A stretch of 50,732 nucleotides of DNA. Source: Candidatus Magasanikiibacteriota bacterium (GTDB lineage: Bacteria > Patescibacteriota > Patescibacteriia > Magasanikbacterales > UBA922). The position numbers and the translations under genes were made by a program. The notes beneath the pieces were generated by a model, which ran no database searches, was not told where the DNA came from, and saw nothing but the letters and a program-made list of their open reading frames with translations. The stretch is from positions 1 to 50,732 of the forward strand of contig JABIBU010000023.1 in assembly GCA_018652595.1 (NCBI GenBank), written 5' to 3'. Of this stretch, positions 1 through 44,077 are shown one piece after another; position 1 is the first letter of the stretch; each line of letters opens with the position of its first letter.

Positions 1-90
1 AAAATTCATTTTCGGAACGAAATGGAGAAAGTGCCTTTTACCCCCCCTTTATTAACTTTTGAAAAAAATTAAATTTTCATTCCTTATTTT
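1..90. repeat. Degenerate direct copy of the right flank of the R-M island
   Basis: This A+T-rich, gene-free stretch resembles 5240-5310 in the same orientation. Both have a GAACG-centred segment (TTCGGAACG here, TTCAGAACG there), then a run of C residues, then an AAAAAATyAAATTT block. No open reading frame or RNA is recognised here. It reads as a second, decayed copy of the sequence that borders the R-M genes on the right. The similarity was judged by eye. Confidence 0.5.
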
Positions 91-134
91 AAAAATCTCT
101 CTGCAAATCATTAATTTGTTAAAAAAATGATTAC

Positions 135-224
135 ATATAACATCAGGATTATGAGAAGTTCAAAATCTTTGATTTTGAATTTGGGTGAAGCCTGCAAGGC
201 GTAACCTCATAATCCTTGTTATAC
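135..224. repeat. attC-like folded recombination site (candidate)
   Basis: A 90-nt imperfect palindrome with nested structure. Outer 7-mers ATATAAC (135-141) and GTTATAC (218-224) pair at 6 of 7 positions. After unequal spacers (4 and 2 nt) the 10-mers GGATTATGAG (146-155) and CTCATAATCC (206-215) pair perfectly. The enclosed sequence folds into two more hairpins, at 159-179 (9-bp stem, TTT loop) and 190-200 (GCCT/AGGC). Paired R-like boxes, unequal spacers and a variable terminal structure are the architecture of integron attC sites. GTTATAC departs from the usual GTTRRRY box at one position. Alternatively it may be an IS or REP-type palindrome. Confidence 0.45.
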
Positions 225-351
225 GTTTTTTCTGCAAGAAAAAAAGCCGAAGGCTCAGTTCAAAAAATATTTTTCGTTCTTATTCATTTAGATAGGCTTT
301 CTTTTATTTCTTATAAATTTGATTTTTTCGTTTTTCTTTTTCCAAGAGGGG
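218..351 (+). repeat. Left arm of inverted repeat flanking the R-M genes
   Basis: Four blocks recur in inverted order at 5285-5382: GTTATACG (218-225), TTCAAAAAATATTTTTC (259-275), GATAGGCTTTCT (291-302) and ATAAATTTGATTTTTTC (313-329), ending in GAGGGG (346-351). Block matches are exact, while the spacers differ in length and sequence. The arm starts exactly at the right box of the attC-like fold. No gene lies in it; small open frames here are chance. Confidence 0.7.
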
Positions 352-381
352 CTAGGGGTGAATTGGAAAAAGGAAAACTCT

Positions 382-3114
382 TTATTCTTTTATTATTGTT
401 TCATATTCTTCCTTAAAGTTTGTATTATGATTTTCATTAAAAAATGGTAATCCTATCAATCTGTAATTGGGATTTTCTGCTTTTATTACATTTTCAAACC
501 CATATTTTTCTGATATTTCTTCTAAAAAAGTCTCTTTCCAACCTTCTTTTCCTGTTTTAAAAGTAGTATCTTCTCCTATAAATTCATTTCCTTTTGGCTC
601 TATAAATACTTGATAATATAATTTATCTTTATTTTTACTTTTTAGAAACAAGATAAAATCTGGCATAAAACCTCTTCCTTTTTTAAAATCATAAATTTTA
701 TAGACTTCTTCATTTCTCAAAAGATGAATTTTGTCATACTTGTTTTCTAAATTTCCAATAGTTTCTTTGATGAATTTTATAAGTGCTTGTTCTTCACTTG
801 TCCCTACAAATCCATCTAAAACATACCATTCATTATCTTTTGCAATATCATCATCTAAATTATTTTCATTAATTGTTTTCGTTTTTGGTTCTGTAAAAAA
901 CTTTTTGAAATTTCCTGTAATAAACTCGCTACCAATTTTTGGTGCAATATTATCTTTTAATTCTGCAAAAATATTATCTAAAAATTTTATAGTAATTCCT
1001 AGTTTATCTTCTCCAGAAATATCGTCATAAGTTTTATTTTTGCTTACGATTATTTTTACATCAAAATCAGCAAGTTTATCATTTTGCAATTCGTCAATAC
1101 TTTCTATATCTAATTCTTTTTTTAATTTTTCAAATTGAAATAGAGAGTTTTCTTGTTTCGCTTTTATGTTAATTGCTTTTTGAAAAATATGTTTTTCTAT
1201 GTTTTTAAATTTTAGACTGATGGTTTGCAGTCCTTTTTCTGACAAACTTAATCTTTGTAAATCTTCTTGATTGTTAAAATCTATTTCTTGCTCGTTAAAT
1301 TCTAAACCTTTAATCTTATATGGAACAAAAAAATCTTTTTTAATATCATCTAAAGTTTTCTTTTTTCTGTTTGGATTATCTATTTGTTTATTATGCCAAA
1401 TTTTTACATTTTTATAAAAATCACTATCTTGAAAATCTTTTTTTAATGCAAAAGTTTTGATTACTTTATCATCTCTAATATAGCCATCTTTTCTTAATTC
1501 TTGTTTTAAATGAGAAATATATCTTGAATCTTCATCGTAAGTATAATAAAAAAGTTCTTCTAAAATTCTTAATTCATTATTTAAATCATCATCAAATTTT
1601 CTTTTATTTTTGATTTTATCATTATATGTAAAAGGGCAATATCTCACACCTCTTCCGATAAGTTGTTTTTCCTTAGTTGTCGCTTCGGGAGTTTTTTTAG
1701 TGCTTCCTCCTGTATTTTGTCCTTGATAAAGTCTTACAATATCAAAAAGGTTTAATACATCCCAACCTTCCGTCAATCTATCTACAGTAAAAATTGCTCT
1801 AATATGATTATTTTTATCTTCTAAACTATTAAGTAGTTTTTCTTGCCCTTCGGTTGTTTTTTCGCTTTTTGTTTTATTTGTTTTAGAATTTGTAATAATT
1901 GTATTTTTTTCTGTAAAACTTCTTTTTATCCAATCAGCAATTTCTCCATATTTGATATTTTCATCTTTAATAAATTTTAAAACTTGTTCTGTTCTGGATT
2001 TTCCTTGTTCATAAAGATTTTTACTATCTTGAATTTTATTTGTTATAACTTTGAAAAAATCAAAATCCTTTGTTTCTAAATTTTCAGTCCAAGTTAAAAA
2101 TTCTTCATAATCTGTTTTTGATTCATCTATTGTTTTACTTCTAAAAAGTATTACTGGTTTGAAATTCGCAATACCATTTTTGAGAGCAATTTTGTGTCTA
2201 TACCATTGAAATAATAATGCTTGTAAAATTCTTTGTTTTTTATCAAGAGTAGAAGAAATAAGGTTTATCTCTTTTGTATATCCAGCACTTAGAAACTCTT
2301 TTAACGTAAACTTATAAATAATTTTATCTTCATACTTTTTTGCTACTTGTTCATTTGCTGGAATTGTTGCAGTATATTCTAACAGCACATTTTTATTCCT
2401 TTTTTTTGTTCCGTTTTTATTTAAAATCAATTCAATTACAGTGTGTTCCCAACCTTTTCTTTCAATATCATCTTTATTTGATGACGCTTTTAATTCTGTT
2501 GCTATTAATTCCTGTTGTATATCTTTCTTTTTTGTATCTGCATTAAAATGATGAGCTTCGTCAGCAAGCATTACAATATTTTTTTTATGTAAGTCTTCTA
2601 GTGTTGTCTGATTTTCTTTTTGCAAGTGAATATCATTATAGAGTTTATGAATCGTAGTAAATTTTATCTCTATCTCTTTGGGATTATCACTAAAAGATTC
2701 TACTTTTTTGATATTTACTGTTTTGTCATTAATTACAATTTTTTCTTTGAATAAGTATTTATTATGAGTATTATCTATAAAATTATTTTCTGTTTTATCT
2801 ACAATATTATTTTGATTTACAAAAAATATAAAATGTCTATATCCTTGTTGATAATAATATAAAATGTTAGAAGCCATTACAAGAGTTTTACCCGTTCCAG
2901 TAGCCATATTAAACATTAGATGAGTAGGGCTATTTGGATTTTCTTTTTCTTTGATAGCTTGAAAAGTTAAAAAGTTTTCAAAAGCCTTTTTTTGCCAATC
3001 AAAAAACTTATATTTCAAATTATTTGAAATATATTCAGATATTTCTGGAAAAGGTAATCTTAATCTGTATGCCTTTTCTCCTATAGTGTCATATAAATAT
3101 TTTATATCTGCCAT
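382..3114 (-). CDS. res: Type III restriction enzyme, Res subunit (DEAD/DEAH helicase-nuclease)
   Basis: This is the ATP-dependent restriction subunit of a type III R-M system. With Mod it cleaves DNA near pairs of unmethylated, oppositely oriented sites. The 910-residue protein has the superfamily 2 helicase motifs in order: Walker A ATGTGKT at residues 71-77, a DEAH-type box in ADEAHH, motif III TAT, and motif VI QLIGRGVRY. A C-terminal PD-(D/E)xK nuclease is visible as MPDFILF followed by FIEPKG. Length and domain order fit Res subunits, and no frameshift is seen. The start codon lies two bases beyond the mod stop codon, so the two genes are probably translationally coupled on one transcript. 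No SD is visible. The gene is very A+T-rich, like mod, and richer in A+T than the chromosomal genes to its right, which fits acquisition as a module. Confidence 0.93.
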   Translation of the reverse strand: MADIKYLYDTIGEKAYRLRLPFPEISEYISNNLKYKFFDWQKKAFENFLTFQAIKEKENPNSPTHLMFNMATGTGKTLVMASNILYYYQQGYRHFIFFVNQNNIVDKTENNFIDNTHNKYLFKEKIVINDKTVNIKKVESFSDNPKEIEIKFTTIHKLYNDIHLQKENQTTLEDLHKKNIVMLADEAHHFNADTKKKDIQQELIATELKASSNKDDIERKGWEHTVIELILNKNGTKKRNKNVLLEYTATIPANEQVAKKYEDKIIYKFTLKEFLSAGYTKEINLISSTLDKKQRILQALLFQWYRHKIALKNGIANFKPVILFRSKTIDESKTDYEEFLTWTENLETKDFDFFKVITNKIQDSKNLYEQGKSRTEQVLKFIKDENIKYGEIADWIKRSFTEKNTIITNSKTNKTKSEKTTEGQEKLLNSLEDKNNHIRAIFTVDRLTEGWDVLNLFDIVRLYQGQNTGGSTKKTPEATTKEKQLIGRGVRYCPFTYNDKIKNKRKFDDDLNNELRILEELFYYTYDEDSRYISHLKQELRKDGYIRDDKVIKTFALKKDFQDSDFYKNVKIWHNKQIDNPNRKKKTLDDIKKDFFVPYKIKGLEFNEQEIDFNNQEDLQRLSLSEKGLQTISLKFKNIEKHIFQKAINIKAKQENSLFQFEKLKKELDIESIDELQNDKLADFDVKIIVSKNKTYDDISGEDKLGITIKFLDNIFAELKDNIAPKIGSEFITGNFKKFFTEPKTKTINENNLDDDIAKDNEWYVLDGFVGTSEEQALIKFIKETIGNLENKYDKIHLLRNEEVYKIYDFKKGRGFMPDFILFLKSKNKDKLYYQVFIEPKGNEFIGEDTTFKTGKEGWKETFLEEISEKYGFENVIKAENPNYRLIGLPFFNENHNTNFKEEYETIIKE

Positions 3115-3116
3115 AA

Positions 3117-5186
3117 TTATTTCTCACTATTATAAAAATTTTCAGTTAATTTTTGGTCTTTTTTATCAATACCAAACTTCTTATCTGCCATTTCTGTTTT
3201 ATTTACATACATTTGATTATTATCAAGCATAGCAATAAACATTTTCTTTTGTTCATCTAAACTAAGATTTTTGAAATTTTCTTCTTTGACAACCTTTTTC
3301 TTAAATTCTTTTATTTTGAGATTATAATTTAAGAAATATTCCTTATACATTTCATCAAAAAACTTAATCAATTCTTTCAAATCTTTACAAGCAATGATTT
3401 TCTCTTTAGCTTTTTCATTCCATTTTGCAAGTTCAAAGTAGATGAAATCTCCACCACCTTTCCAATCATTATCTTTGCTTACTCCACTATCTTCACCATT
3501 TAATACATTTCTTATCCTTTTTGTAAGTTTCTCTGTATGATCAGATAATTGTTCTATTGTAATATATTGTCTATTAATTTTTTGTGCTGTTGCTGCTGTA
3601 GTACCACTTCCACCAAAAAAATCCATAACAATATCTTTTTCATTGGTACATAATTTAATTATTCTTTCTAATAATTTTTCGGGTTTTTTGCCGAATCTTA
3701 AATCAACACCACCCTCATTAGAAAGGTTGTTTATCCCAATATCAGTCCATATATCCCCTAAAGCTACAACTGGTGTTTTTTTACCTCTTATTTCCATTAC
3801 TTTATCAGCTGCAAAATTAACATCTTCATTTTTATAAATAAAATAATATGATTCGTCTGGGTTCACAATTTTTGAAATTTTATCTTTTTGGTACTTAGAA
3901 TAATCTGCACCTCTATTTACCGCAGTCCTAAATATCAAATCAGCATTTCTTATCTTAAAATCAGAAATAGCTTTTTTGTCTTTCATGTCTATTCCTTCGT
4001 TTTTCATCGCTTGAGTTAGCGTAATGACTTCCCACTTATTACATTCTTCATCACTAAATCCTTTTTTATTTATAAACGACTTATATCTTTCCAAAGCTTC
4101 ATCCCATGTAGCTGGTGAATATTGTGGGGTTAATTTAATTTTGCCGGACTTGGTGTAGAACAAAATAAATTCTTTTATTTTGGGTAATTTTACTTCTTTA
4201 TGAGCCATTTTTACCCCACTTAAATGGGACATTTGAACACATATAGTGGTATGGAAATTTTCTCTGTTAAAAATGTCATCACATAATATTTTTAGGTGCC
4301 CCTGTTCTATATCATTTATTTGAATAAAAATAACTCCATCATCACTCAGTAATTCTCTTGCCACCTCCAGTCTATTTTTTATAAAAGTTAACCATGTAGA
4401 GTGATTAAAATTATCATTATATCCAAAACTATCCGAGCCAGTATTATACGGAGGATCAATATAAATCAGTTTTACTTTTCCTGCAAATTCCTTTTTTAAG
4501 CTATGTAGTGCTAAAAGATTATTTCCTTTTATAATTAAGTTTTCTTTTATTGTTCCATCTTCATCTCTTTTTATCTCTTTTACTTCTTGTTCTCCATCTT
4601 TATCAAATCTTTTCCAATTAGTTAGTGCTTTATGGTCAAAAAGTCTATCTATCTCATCGTGAGCTAAAACTTGATTGAAAAATATCTCTTTTCTTTTCCC
4701 TTGTTTCTCTTTGTATCCTGCTTCTTCTTTTACTTTTTCACCTTTTACAGTTTTAGTTTTTTCTTCCTCGTATTCAAAATAAGTATCAGTTCCTTCTTCT
4801 GTGCTTTGTCCACCTTCTAACACGCAATCCTTATATGGAAAATCTAAAACTACATCATTCGTATCTTTCAAAAACTTTTTACCATCAGTTAAACCAATTC
4901 TATTTTTGTAATCAGTAAAAGAGTTATCAACCTTGTTTTCTTCTATAAAAAATCTAAAATTATTTGTTTTAAATACATAAACATCTTTGATTTTTACAAA
5001 AAACTTTTCTCTTATAGATTTTTCTTGTAAAAGCAATTCAATCACTTTTTCATCAATATGTTCTACTAAATCAATAAGTAAGGTTTCGTTTAAATCAGTT
5101 TTATTTTCATCCCAAAGCCTTTCATCTTTTTTTAAGACTTTTTCAACAAGTTGTTTTAGTTTGTTATCATCCATATTTTTCACCAT
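3117..5186 (-). CDS. mod: Type III modification methyltransferase (adenine-N6), Mod subunit
   Basis: Site-specific DNA adenine-N6 methyltransferase that recognises the target for the whole type III complex and protects host DNA. The 689-residue protein carries the catalytic motif DPPYNTG in the middle and the AdoMet-binding FFGGSGTTA later, the motif order of beta-class N6 enzymes. The variable region between them would be the target-recognition domain. It is the first gene of the mod-res operon. A promoter with TTGAAA N16 TATAAT lies just upstream and gives a leader of only about 15 nt. The first ATG (5186) is used here; an ATG four codons later is equally possible, since neither has an SD. 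The target sequence cannot be predicted by eye. Confidence 0.93.
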   Translation of the reverse strand: MVKNMDDNKLKQLVEKVLKKDERLWDENKTDLNETLLIDLVEHIDEKVIELLLQEKSIREKFFVKIKDVYVFKTNNFRFFIEENKVDNSFTDYKNRIGLTDGKKFLKDTNDVVLDFPYKDCVLEGGQSTEEGTDTYFEYEEEKTKTVKGEKVKEEAGYKEKQGKRKEIFFNQVLAHDEIDRLFDHKALTNWKRFDKDGEQEVKEIKRDEDGTIKENLIIKGNNLLALHSLKKEFAGKVKLIYIDPPYNTGSDSFGYNDNFNHSTWLTFIKNRLEVARELLSDDGVIFIQINDIEQGHLKILCDDIFNRENFHTTICVQMSHLSGVKMAHKEVKLPKIKEFILFYTKSGKIKLTPQYSPATWDEALERYKSFINKKGFSDEECNKWEVITLTQAMKNEGIDMKDKKAISDFKIRNADLIFRTAVNRGADYSKYQKDKISKIVNPDESYYFIYKNEDVNFAADKVMEIRGKKTPVVALGDIWTDIGINNLSNEGGVDLRFGKKPEKLLERIIKLCTNEKDIVMDFFGGSGTTAATAQKINRQYITIEQLSDHTEKLTKRIRNVLNGEDSGVSKDNDWKGGGDFIYFELAKWNEKAKEKIIACKDLKELIKFFDEMYKEYFLNYNLKIKEFKKKVVKEENFKNLSLDEQKKMFIAMLDNNQMYVNKTEMADKKFGIDKKDQKLTENFYNSEK

Positions 5187-5207
5187 TAGTAGTTAAAAGT
5201 TATTAGT

Positions 5208-5235
5208 ATTATATAAGTTTTGTTCTTCTTTTCAA
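5208..5235 (-). promoter_or_regulatory. Promoter of mod-res
   Basis: On the minus strand TTGAAA (5235-5230) is followed after 16 nt by TATAAT (5213-5208). The expected start of transcription lies around 5201, so the mod leader would be very short. Confidence 0.6.
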
Positions 5236-5284
5236 TTTATAAATCATCGTTTTCAGAACGGAGTGAGGAAAACACAATATTATC

Positions 5285-5382
5285 CCCCTCCTTTTTTTAG
5301 AAAAAATCAAATTTATTCCCCTTTTTAGAAAGCCTATCGTTATTATCTATCTTAGAAAAATATTTTTTGAATTGCGTATAAC
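5285..5382 (-). repeat. Right arm of inverted repeat; attI-like box at its end
   Basis: Reverse complement of the left arm: GAAAAATATTTTTTGAA (5355-5371), AGAAAGCCTATC (5327-5338) and GAAAAAATCAAATTTAT (5300-5316) match the left blocks exactly. It ends in GTATAAC (5376-5382), the complement of the GTTATAC box at 218-224. The recombinase gene starts about 80 bases further on and diverges from the R-M genes, which is where an integron would carry its attI site. The integron reading is inference. Confidence 0.65.
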
Positions 5383-5420
5383 AGGCTATATCAGAACTCC
5401 TTAAAAATTTACCTAAGATA

Positions 5421-5429
5421 TGATATAAT
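5421..5429 (+). promoter_or_regulatory. Extended -10 promoter of the tyrosine recombinase
   Basis: TGA-TATAAT, an extended -10 element (TG at 5421-5422, TATAAT at 5424-5429). No convincing -35 is seen. Transcription would start near 5436, which favours the ATG at 5461 over the upstream ATG at 5440. Confidence 0.5.
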
Positions 5430-5460
5430 TCTGTTATTAATGTGTAATCACAAGTATGTT

Positions 5461-6303
5461 ATGAATACACCTAATTATCGCCCTAGCCGAGACCCAATGG
5501 AGCTTTTGGGACAGGAAATGAAGCTTCGGGGGTTTAGTCTGAGGACGATCGAGTCATATACCCATTATATCAGCGAATGCCTTAGGTTTGCAAGTGTTTC
5601 ACCAAAGGAAGTGACGACCGCGACTGTGCGGGATTATTTGGATTTTTTGGCGACAGCTGGCAAATCAGCTTCGACTTTGAATACAGTCTATAGTGCTCTC
5701 AAGTTTTATTTTGAAAAAATCATGAAAAGAAGCTTTTTTGTGAATATTCCACGATCAAAGAACAAAAAGAGATTGCCGACAGTGCTATCAAAGGAGGAGA
5801 TAGGCAGAATGCTAGAAAAGACTATTAATCCCAAGCATAATTGTATAATCAGTATGCTTTATGGTTGTGGTTTGCGGGTGAGTGAGGTGAATAGTGTGAA
5901 GATGCTTGATATTGATTTTGATAGAAAGGTCTTGCGGATTTATCGAGGTAAGGGAGATAAAGATAGATATGTGATGTTGCCGAAAAAACTATTTTCAATA
6001 TTATCTGCTCAGGATAAAATGAAAAATAAAAATGATTACTTATTTACAAATGGTAGAAATGGCAAACTTACAACACGCTCAATTGATAAAATAGTAAAAA
6101 AGTCGGCCAATTTGGCAGGAATTAATAAAAATGTGTCTCCACATGTGCTTCGTCATAGTTTTGCCACGCATTTATTGGAAGATGGGACAGATATTCGCTA
6201 TATCCAAGAGCTGTTGGGTCATGCTCGGCTAGAGACAACGCAAATTTATACGCATGTGGCGAGTAATAATTTGGTTGGAATCGTTAGTCCTCTTGATACT
6301 TGA
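5461..6303 (+). CDS. Tyrosine recombinase, XerA/IntI-like
   Basis: DNA strand-exchange enzyme of the phage-integrase family. The 280-residue protein has an N-terminal SAM-like core-binding domain (about 12-95) and a catalytic domain with Arg139 (GLRVSE), a lysine in GKGDKDR (164-167), His228 and Arg231 (HVLRH), His254 (LLGH) and the nucleophile Tyr263 (QIYTHV). The ending VSPLD resembles XerA and integron integrases. The roughly 35-residue insert that marks true IntI between the lysine and HxxR patches is absent, so it is not a classical IntI. In Patescibacteria such proteins may serve as chromosome-dimer resolvases, but this one sits beside the inverted repeat of the R-M island and may act on it. 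The start at 5461 is chosen because an ATG seven codons upstream lies almost on the predicted transcription start. It ends in TGA. Confidence 0.9.
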   Translation: MNTPNYRPSRDPMELLGQEMKLRGFSLRTIESYTHYISECLRFASVSPKEVTTATVRDYLDFLATAGKSASTLNTVYSALKFYFEKIMKRSFFVNIPRSKNKKRLPTVLSKEEIGRMLEKTINPKHNCIISMLYGCGLRVSEVNSVKMLDIDFDRKVLRIYRGKGDKDRYVMLPKKLFSILSAQDKMKNKNDYLFTNGRNGKLTTRSIDKIVKKSANLAGINKNVSPHVLRHSFATHLLEDGTDIRYIQELLGHARLETTQIYTHVASNNLVGIVSPLDT

Positions 6304-9544: not shown

Positions 9545-10768
9545 ATGCACCTGAAGACAATCAAACAACTTCGTAATCTATCTGGCAAGACGGTCTTAGT
9601 CCGAGTAGACTTCAACGTGCCAATAAAGCGTAAAAAAGTATTAGACAATACGCGTTTATTAGCAAGTTTACCAACGATTAAATATTTAACTGAAAAAAAA
9701 GCTAAAGTTATTTTGATTACACATGTTGGTCGTCCTGCTGGTAAGGTTGTTGCGAGTTTGAAAGTGAATCCGATTGTTGAAGAACTGAGTGGTTTGTTGA
9801 AAAAGAAGATCAAGAAACTCGAGACAGGGTCATGGCCCTCCTCCGCTAAAGCTACGGCGGATAAAATGCGTCTTAAACTACTTAAAGATGTTGAAGGATT
9901 AAAACCAGGTCAGGTGGCAATGATGGAGAATATTCGTTTTAGTTCTGATGAAAAAAATAATACTGGCACACTGAGCCAGGAATTGGCAAATTTGGTAGAT
10001 TATTTTGTATTGGATGGTTTTGCTGTGGCACATCGAGATTCAGCTTCAGTTACTGGTGTGGCTGAATATGTTCCTGCCTATGCTGGTCTGCTTTTGGAAA
10101 GTGAAATAAAAGGCTTGAGCAAAGTCACCACTAAGCCAAAAAAACCATTTGTAGTCGTGATTGGTGGAATTAAGACTGAAACTAAGATTCCGGTTATAAA
10201 AAATTTACTACCAAAGACAGATAATGTTTTGGTTAGCGGTGGAATTTTCAATACGTATTTGAAAGCAAAAGGCTACAAGGTTGGCGCATCACTTGTTGAT
10301 AAGAATTATGAAAAAGAAGTGTTGAAATACTGCAAGTCTAGAAAAGTCATCTTACCAACTGACGTAATAGTAGGTACTATGGATGGAAAGCATTTTCGTC
10401 CAGTTAAACTTCTTAAAAAACCACATCAAGTTTGTAAAAAGAATGAAGCAATACTAGATATGGGTCCAGAAACGATTCATTTATTTGCAAAATATATCAA
10501 AAAAGCTCAAACACTAGTTTGGAATGGAGCAATGGGATATTTTGAACAAAAACCATATGATATCGGCACCCTATCAATTGCTCGTTTGGTAGCCTCTCGT
10601 TCAAAAGGAAAGGCCTTTGGCGTGATAGGCGGTGGAGAGACACTGCAGTCTATGGATTTGGTTGGTATGAGTGAACATGTAGATTTAATTTCAACCGGTG
10701 GTGGAGCGATGTTGGAGTTTTTGAGCGGAAAAGAATTACCAGGAATAAAAGCTGTTACAAAAAAGTAA
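9545..10768 (+). CDS. pgk: Phosphoglycerate kinase
   Basis: Transfers the acyl phosphate of 1,3-bisphosphoglycerate to ADP. The 407-residue protein has the N-terminal motif VLVRVDFNVP, LITHVGRPAGK, MENIRF, and the C-terminal nucleotide-binding signature GGGETLQS followed by STGGGAMLEFLSG. It is complete. At about residues 98-109 it carries an extra segment (SWPSSAKATADK) encoded by a palindromic, G+C-rich repeat. This sits between the N-domain helix and the conserved LKPGQ, where family members are variable. It is the second glycolytic gene after gap and is followed by a promoter for the SIMPL gene. Confidence 0.96.
   Translation: MHLKTIKQLRNLSGKTVLVRVDFNVPIKRKKVLDNTRLLASLPTIKYLTEKKAKVILITHVGRPAGKVVASLKVNPIVEELSGLLKKKIKKLETGSWPSSAKATADKMRLKLLKDVEGLKPGQVAMMENIRFSSDEKNNTGTLSQELANLVDYFVLDGFAVAHRDSASVTGVAEYVPAYAGLLLESEIKGLSKVTTKPKKPFVVVIGGIKTETKIPVIKNLLPKTDNVLVSGGIFNTYLKAKGYKVGASLVDKNYEKEVLKYCKSRKVILPTDVIVGTMDGKHFRPVKLLKKPHQVCKKNEAILDMGPETIHLFAKYIKKAQTLVWNGAMGYFEQKPYDIGTLSIARLVASRSKGKAFGVIGGGETLQSMDLVGMSEHVDLISTGGGAMLEFLSGKELPGIKAVTKK
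9836..9868. repeat. In-frame palindromic repeat inside pgk
   Basis: The core TCCGCTAAAGCTACGGCGGA is close to a palindrome. It matches the repeat in the U32 gene (16937-16970) at most positions (shared pattern CCCTCCTyCGyTAAArCTACGGCGG) and the one in valS (26271-26306) more loosely. Confidence 0.75.
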
Positions 10769-42943: not shown

Positions 42944-44077
42944 ATGAATATAGCCATCGACATTAGGTCTCTAATGAACAAACAAAGAACTGGTGTGGGG
43001 GAGTATGCTTACGAACTTCTCGACGCTGTTTTTAAAAACGCTGATGATAATCAGTATTTTTTATTTTATAATTCTTATAAAGATGTATCAGATAATATTC
43101 CAAAGTGGAATTATGAAAATGTTCACTATTTGTTCACAAGGTGGCCGAATAAATTATTTAGTCTGTTTACATGGTTGGGTTTTATAAAGTTGGATAGACT
43201 AATAAAACAAAAGGTCGATTGGTTTTTTGCACCGAATATTAATTTTTTATCATTGTCGAGAAAGACAAAATTTATTCTAACTGTTCATGATTTGAGTTTT
43301 GAAATTCTGCCAGAGTGTTATACTTGGAAAAGAAGATTGTGGCACAAGGCTTTACGACCAAAAAAGATGTGTCGGCGTGCTGATATTATTTTGACACCAT
43401 CAGAGAACACGAGAAGGGACGTTATGCGAGAGTGGTGGATTGAGGGAGATAAAATTAAAGTTTTGTATCCAGGACTTTCTTCGGTTATCGGTTATCCCTC
43501 CAATTCGGCGGGCAGGCAGATATCAGATAACAACGAGCCTAGAAGTGAAGAGATAAAACGAAAATATGGTTTGCCTGATAAATATATTTTGTATCTAGGT
43601 ACGATTGAGCCGCGGAAGAATATTTTGGGCATTATTGAGGCGTATAAAAAAAGTTTATTATTGAATGACAAGTATATGCTCGTAGTTGCTGGTGCCAGCG
43701 GTTGGAAGAATGAAGAAGTGTTAGAATCACTAGAAAAAACTACCGGAGTAAAATATATTGGTTATGTGAAAGATGAGGACAAGGCTATGCTCTATAAAAA
43801 TGCAGACCTTTTTGTATTTCCAAGTCTATATGAGGGCTTTGGTCTGCCAGTTTTAGAAGCATTGGCTTGTGGTACACCAGTTATTACATCAGATAGGTCG
43901 TCCTTATCAGAAGTTTTTGGAGATCATGCTACACTAGTTAACCCAAATAATATAAGCGAAATTAGTAGAGCCATGAAGGTGGTTTTGAATAGTAAAATAG
44001 AGACTCCTAAGATAGATTTGGAAAAGTTTGATTGGGGTAAGGTGGCCGAAAAATTTTTGGACTTGACAAATACTTGA
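42944..44077 (+). CDS. GT4-family glycosyltransferase
   Basis: 377 residues, GT-B fold. Begins MNIAIDIRSLMNKQRTGVGEY; the C-terminal domain has YILYLGTIEPRKNILGIIEAY, YIGYVKDEDKAMLYKNADLFVFPS and YEGFGLPVLEALACGTPVIT, the GT4 donor-binding signature. It is similar in style to the mannosyltransferases that begin with this type of N terminus, but the sugar is not known. Residues around 184-196 (YPSNSAGRQISDN) are encoded by a palindromic repeat between YPGLSSV and SEEIKRKYG. The TGA stop overlaps the -35 of the next gene. Confidence 0.92.
   Translation: MNIAIDIRSLMNKQRTGVGEYAYELLDAVFKNADDNQYFLFYNSYKDVSDNIPKWNYENVHYLFTRWPNKLFSLFTWLGFIKLDRLIKQKVDWFFAPNINFLSLSRKTKFILTVHDLSFEILPECYTWKRRLWHKALRPKKMCRRADIILTPSENTRRDVMREWWIEGDKIKVLYPGLSSVIGYPSNSAGRQISDNNEPRSEEIKRKYGLPDKYILYLGTIEPRKNILGIIEAYKKSLLLNDKYMLVVAGASGWKNEEVLESLEKTTGVKYIGYVKDEDKAMLYKNADLFVFPSLYEGFGLPVLEALACGTPVITSDRSSLSEVFGDHATLVNPNNISEISRAMKVVLNSKIETPKIDLEKFDWGKVAEKFLDLTNT
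43496..43519 (+). repeat. In-frame palindromic repeat in a glycosyltransferase gene
   Basis: Core CCAATTCGGCGGGCAGGCA, G+C-rich in an A+T-rich gene, encoding PSNSAGR. A dispersed-repeat type like those in pgk and gpmI, but with a different core. Confidence 0.55.

Follow-up and report, generated by a model that had tools for sequence, protein, structure and literature searches.

Can a restriction-modification (R-M) gene pair beside a recombinase gene be a captured integron cassette, and can the capturing enzyme be something other than an IntI integrase? The locus that raises this question lies at the left end of a complete contig of 50,732 bases (C27; the whole of it is called the window here), one of the 27 contigs of a 0.96 Mb, 95% complete genome of Candidatus Magasanikiibacteriota, which belongs to the Patescibacteria, tiny and mostly uncultured bacteria. 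A sequence-only reading had suggested a cassette-capture system, carrying a 5 kb defence cassette and run by an integrase without the usual IntI insert. That suggestion is supported by the related genomes, the attC folds and the cassette arrays described below, and we consider it very probable that the locus is part of a chromosomal integron-like array with a non-IntI integrase, in which the R-M pair is the first cassette. The reading is carried by a conserved attI-like site, covarying attC-like sites, cassette arrays, exchange of cargo, R'' boxes that match their own cassettes, the co-occurrence of enzyme and sites, and the absence of IntI. The features of the locus are listed in Table 1.

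Table 1. Features of the integron-like locus, in window coordinates, and one related cassette from another genome (last line).
Feature	Position	Strand	Basis or remark
Start of next cassette	1..140	-	after attC crossover; truncated by contig end
attC-like site	135..225	-	R'' CGTATAAC 225-218, L'' 216-206, L' 155-145, R' GTTATAT 141-135
Cassette 1, 5241 bp	141..5381	-	attI crossover to attC crossover; R boxes and comparison with 50 cassettes
Cassette 3' tail	226..351	-	inverted repeat of leader 5285-5375
Type III restriction subunit (Res)	382..3114	-	PF04851 (ResIII), 91 bits
Type III DNA methyltransferase (Mod)	3117..5186	-	PF01555 (N6_N4_Mtase), PF12564 (TypeIII_RM_meth); PADLOC MTase_III, 717 bits
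Cassette 5' leader, with TATAAT at 5213-5208	5187..5381	-	similar leaders precede other genes in G027, G005, G040
attI-like site GTTCTGATATAGCCTGTT	5380..5397	-	final GTT opens R box GTTATAC (5382-5376)
TATAAT, putative -10 element of integrase	5424..5429	+	within stretch conserved among relatives
Integrase (tyrosine recombinase, Patescibacteria clade A)	5440..6303	+	faces away from R-M pair
G027 cassette with window-type ends	L061:1426-3935		680-residue protein; attI position of clade B integrase

The adjacent Mod and Res genes form a type III R-M system and, as first read, point away from the recombinase gene, which is on the opposite strand. The GTTATAC box between them had been placed where an attI site would be, and it proved to be the R box of a site that is kept in 23 of 24 related loci. 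The same architecture of about 18 nt lies upstream of the recombinase in each of these; read away from the recombinase, it typically consists of GTT, S and G, followed by an AT-rich core and closed by GTT. The gene beyond this site differs among genomes, and the first proteins include only a single related pair (methylases). An attI-like site with cassettes inserted at it is thus found beside the integrase gene, and relatives carry the same recombinase and site with different cassettes, a variation that the sequence-only reading had named as a test. Fixed synteny of recombinase and R-M genes, which would have spoken against capture, was not found: the Mod protein is missing from 93 of 94 relatives, and the remaining one (G001) has a fragment of 102 residues. 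Nor was a fixed association of the recombinase with yebC/ruvC seen among the loci examined, except in L030 and, farther off, in L059.

The attC-like site at the far end of the pair, which had also been noted, folds much more stably than shuffled versions of itself. Its minimum free energy was -19.1/-21.6 kcal/mol, compared to -5.4/-6.1 kcal/mol for the shuffles (z ≈ -7.2; none of 200 equalled it), with a z of about -7 on either strand, and its extrahelical TT is at 157-156. In the joined form predicted for the cassette circle, the site pairs through both R boxes. DNA similarity found only short chance matches to the site in its own genome, and the pattern ACATCNNNTAACA found none there; since both had failed, a covariance model was needed. 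A scan that demanded pairing between R'' and R' overlooked the majority of sites, R' being part of the neighbouring cassette. In the relatives, 20 attC sites at cassette 3' ends could be aligned firmly, defining a family in which R'' is invariably followed by AACA and which has an L helix of 11 bp, a GTT/AAC pair block that an extrahelical dinucleotide sets apart, an uneven spacer and a G|TT or A|TT end; a WT bulge lies between columns C43 and C46 of the alignment (A1). The window site has the features of the family. Over the 20 sites, pairing in the L helix amounts to 94.3%, and 10 of its 14 pairs have changed on both sides. The structure as a whole had a covariation score of 0.442, against 0.128 ± 0.017 for shuffles and at most 0.089 for slid versions. 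Strongly covarying attC-like folds, with conserved paired boxes and extrahelical bases as in integrons, are therefore present at other cassette borders, where the sequence-only reading had proposed to look for them.

The covariance model (R1) was built from sites in the studied loci, with 12 genomes contributing training sites. It gave the window site 55.4 bits and matched 47 of the 95 relatives; of 286 genomes sampled from the phylum, 40 had a match (E ≤ 1e-5). A scan of genome contigs with generic peptide patterns gave mostly other integrases among the matches listed. In 947 kb around other integrases there were five weak matches, none above 29 bits. A weak match within the window (43396-43429, 20.6 bits) was rejected as chance.

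Arrays in the relatives reach seven to eight consecutive attC sites. We took as cassettes the 50 intervals between consecutive sites, which have a median length of 1084 bp and usually one open reading frame (ORF); 48 contain an ORF, and the longest one runs in the cassette direction, away from the integrase end, in 45 of the 48. These are arrays of interchangeable, mostly co-oriented cassettes, as in integrons, and their cargo varies by genome. R'' perfectly matched the start of its own cassette in 20 of 48 cases, versus 2 of 48 for the neighbouring cassette (permutation mean 3.3, maximum 11 in 20,000 runs). In the window, R'' (225-218) is exactly complementary to the first bases of the cassette (GTTATACG, 5382-5375), which lie 5.1 kb from it; the adjacent R' reads GTTATATG. 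Complementarity of this kind is what circularising cassettes would produce, and would not be expected of a fixed island. The sequence-only reading had pictured an empty site joining 5382 to about 141; the bounds of the cassette are corrected to 5381 and 141.

The cargo elsewhere includes Fic proteins (7 of 72 cargo proteins), DNA methylases, an HpaII-type R-M system with an AAA protein, MutH-like, T5orf172 and Abi-alpha proteins, kinases and NUDIX enzymes. A cassette with two long genes had been thought unusual, and in size the window cassette is, but it does not stand alone; the HpaII R-M cassette, at 5.8 kb, is one of several others. The ends of the window cassette recur around other genes. 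Its leader has 83–85% identity to leaders in G027 (L061) and G005 (L052) and 80% to one in G040 (L009), and over 124 bp its tail (381-257) shares 97.6% identity with a cassette tail in G027. In G027, a single-contig genome from another genus, the leader (83%) and the tail (97.6%) flank one unrelated gene, whose product, judged from its translation, resembles a DUF262/GmrSD-type restriction protein. The gene with window-like ends in G005 is small and presumably oxidase-like, again from its translation, and in G033 the window tail follows a methylase and one further gene. The arrays of G027 and G033 lie beside integrases of clade B, a second group of Patescibacteria enzymes described below, and cassette ends are therefore common to both integrase clades.

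Two further types of locus were seen. Gene-less, cassette-like units of about 175–220 nt, mostly GC-rich, occur in L047 (G026), L054 (G020), L056 (G069) and L093 (G001; 1595-1771 and 4586-4761); they end in A|TT rather than G|TT and are repeated within one array, sometimes right at attI. Clusters of attC sites with no detected clade A or B recombinase (G001:C8, G002:C4, G019:C17, G044 and G077:C10) resemble the clusters of attC sites lacking integron-integrases (CALINs).

The window itself would hold only the integrase end of its array. Base 1 is the end of the assembly, just beyond the attC-like site, so that the DNA to the left, which had been proposed for an attC scan, is not there. Another contig of the same genome, C2 (5448 bases), starts inside a cassette and carries attC sites at 42-141 and 543-660, flanking a gene for a small membrane protein (G000:C2). 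Beyond them are a small ORF and two genes that we read as mscL and rpoC. The array that starts on C27 probably ends on C2, and the two contigs would then join. Contigs of the relatives, too, often end no more than a few hundred bases from the recombinase, where assembly breaks are expected because the repeat array begins there.

Recombinase and attC sites tend to occur in the same genomes: attC sites were found in 39 of 52 genomes with the recombinase, compared to 8 of 43 without it (odds ratio 13, p = 4e-8). The cassettes could nevertheless be the work of a canonical IntI, since lost or residing in a host cell or elsewhere, with the adjacent recombinase serving some other role. The eight genomes that have attC sites without a recombinase would fit this explanation, as would the view that the I2 helix of IntI is necessary (PMC7790495). 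We consider it improbable, given the co-occurrence, the fixed place of attI-like site and cassettes by the recombinase in 23 of 24 loci, the lack of any protein above the IntI cut-off (TIGR02249, 265 bits) in the 95 relatives, and the failure of R1 to match any attC site in a class 1 integron (L103, with five resistance-gene cassettes).

The recombinase itself falls outside IntI. It scored 248.8 bits against NF040815 (recomb_XerA_Arch), above the curated cut-off of 220, and 233.6 bits against TIGR02249 (IntI) in two stretches, below the curated cut-off of 265. Among sequences in the PDB, IntI4 (2A3V) is its best relative; the alignment falls into two stretches, separated by a gap at the IntI insert. 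The insert of about 42 residues that contains the I2 helix is indeed missing, as had been noticed from the sequence alone: the distance from the GKG to the HxLRH motif is 65 residues in the window enzyme and 65–75 (86 in one case) in the Patescibacteria enzymes, versus 107–108 in the IntIs measured. In the tree, IntI forms one clade (100/100), from which the window's clade A is separate (97/97); clade B is placed elsewhere, also outside IntI, and both adjoin attC sites of one family. The predicted structure (mean pLDDT 82) had XerA (4A8E) as its top match, with Z = 23.1 and a root-mean-square deviation (rmsd) of 8.9 over 255 aligned residues, and its other best match was IntI4, with Z = 21.4 and an rmsd of 4.0. 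Homologues suggest that translation begins at the ATG at 5461. We consider it hardly likely that a divergent IntI runs an ordinary integron here. The layout of attI, cassettes, attC and opposed integrase is that of such an integron, and the enzyme has a C-terminal SPLD in common with IntI as well as its match of 234 bits to TIGR02249, but the motif spacing, the score and the position of both Patescibacteria clades in the tree contradict this explanation, unless a loss of the insert took place within IntI.

The genome has a second tyrosine recombinase (G000:C18:27774-28286), Xer-like in the tree and presumably the chromosome-dimer enzyme. Recombinase genes with an in-frame stop or a frameshift were seen in G091 (C1:835754-836608), G049 (C5) and G032 (C39), with attC sites still present; these resemble decayed integrons. 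Outside the Patescibacteria, weak R1 matches lie by integrases without I2 in L134 (Spirochaetota; 9704-9811, 29.0 bits) and L118 (11907-11983, 25.7 bits), and integron-like systems lacking I2 may be wider than this group.

The relationship noted earlier between the blocks at 218-351 and 5285-5382 held up: they are inverted repeats with 72% identity (E = 2.8e-4 in a search within the genome). The block at 218-351 forms the 3' tail of the R-M cassette, so that its resemblance to the 5' leader amounts to a terminal inverted repeat, which scored 65 where the 99th percentile of the null was 39. The block at the contig end (1-146) is where the next cassette starts. Inverted repeats that lengthen the hairpin past the R boxes exceed that percentile in 14 of 50 cassettes, including this one, in which they span about 80–100 bp; in a cassette circle they would form a stem at the base of the hairpin, at most about 100 bp long. 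Such repeats would also be expected if the R-M pair were the cargo of an element with terminal inverted repeats, moved as double-stranded DNA by a Xer-like recombinase and only superficially similar to an integron. This is very unlikely, since most cassettes have the same attC without long repeats, the arrays run head to tail with one site per border and no paired ends, covariation of the L helix is seen within each site, and the closest solved relative of the enzyme by sequence is an IntI. The suggestion that the locus is an ordinary genomic island beside a chromosomal Xer gene, with site and repeats due to chance, agrees with the XerA-family annotation of the recombinase but is ruled out by the comparative data (the fold, family-wide covariation and arrays) and by the presence of another Xer-like recombinase elsewhere in the genome.

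In the integron-like array that we favour, the recombinase would bind the double-stranded attI-like site and the folded single strand of the attC-like hairpin, cut at the G|TT of the R boxes and insert circular cassettes beside attI, with the inserted gene directed away from the integrase. The first position would be held by the R-M pair, and the next cassette, from 140, would run off the contig. That an enzyme without I2 recombines single-stranded attC is what we infer from these sequences. Without I2, the enzyme may read the extended stem or the uneven spacers instead. By its layout and sites, the system appears to be integron-like in its working, and by score, insert and clade its enzyme does not count as an IntI.

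Several points weigh against this reading. R1 was trained on sites from the same loci that it was used to examine, though about 35 of the 47 matching relatives gave no training site, and are hence independent. Thirteen genomes with the recombinase had no attC site at E ≤ 0.001, and there are the eight with attC and no recombinase. About one-third of the cassettes as delimited match their own R'' poorly, partly through missed sites. Finally, the I2 helix is described as necessary for cassette capture by IntI where PMC7790495 cites Messier and Roy (2001), and this argues against the same reaction being done in the same way. On balance, we lean towards the view that the Patescibacteria integrases never had the I2 helix, or do not need it, and recognise the folded attC otherwise. 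They would then represent an independent route to single-strand cassette recombination, or a surviving early stage of it, present in dozens of families and often put to use for anti-phage systems.

The IntI insert has been called both defining and necessary (PMC9668308, PMC7790495), and the I2 helix has been described as the innovation that enabled the use of single-stranded attC, found in no other protein and lacking intermediates (PMC7790495). Natural cassette arrays served by integrases without I2 would allow a direct test of this idea. They would also bring integrons to a bacterial group that is among the largest, in which no complete integron can be found by tools that depend on the IntI domain, and would give bacteria with genomes of about 1 Mb a means to swap restriction and other defence genes. 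We found no paper on integrons in Patescibacteria or the Candidate Phyla Radiation (CPR) in the open literature, and an earlier description elsewhere is possible.

The Patescibacteria arrays resemble chromosomal (sedentary) integrons in having an integrase opposed to the cassettes with attI beside it, head-to-tail cassettes that usually carry one ORF and a 3' attC, a G|TT crossover, a R''/L''/L'/R' hairpin with extrahelical bases, and an R box that changes with each insertion. They differ in their hosts, in integrases of the window type that lack the I2 insert and lie outside the IntI clade, in an attC family of their own (AACA...WT bulge, uneven spacers), in inverted repeats beyond the R boxes of some cassettes and in the gene-less A|TT cassettes. 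The integrons of Archaea likewise place cassette arrays outside the usual bacterial clades and come from metagenome-assembled genomes, but archaeal IntIs retain the IntI-specific domain (PMC9668308), unlike the Patescibacteria enzymes. XerA and other single-Xer recombinases (4A8E, 5HXY; NF040815) share overall length and architecture with the window enzyme, which scores above the NF040815 cut-off; unlike XerA, it sits at a cassette array and is not a lone chromosome-resolution enzyme; the Xer-like recombinase on C18 is the second in this genome. The use of XerC by CTX-phi and by integrative mobile elements exploiting Xer (IMEX) is a case of folded single strands recombined by enzymes without I2 (PMC7790495), as would occur here. 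Those elements borrow the host Xer and dif, whereas the window locus has a dedicated integrase, an attI-like site and arrays.
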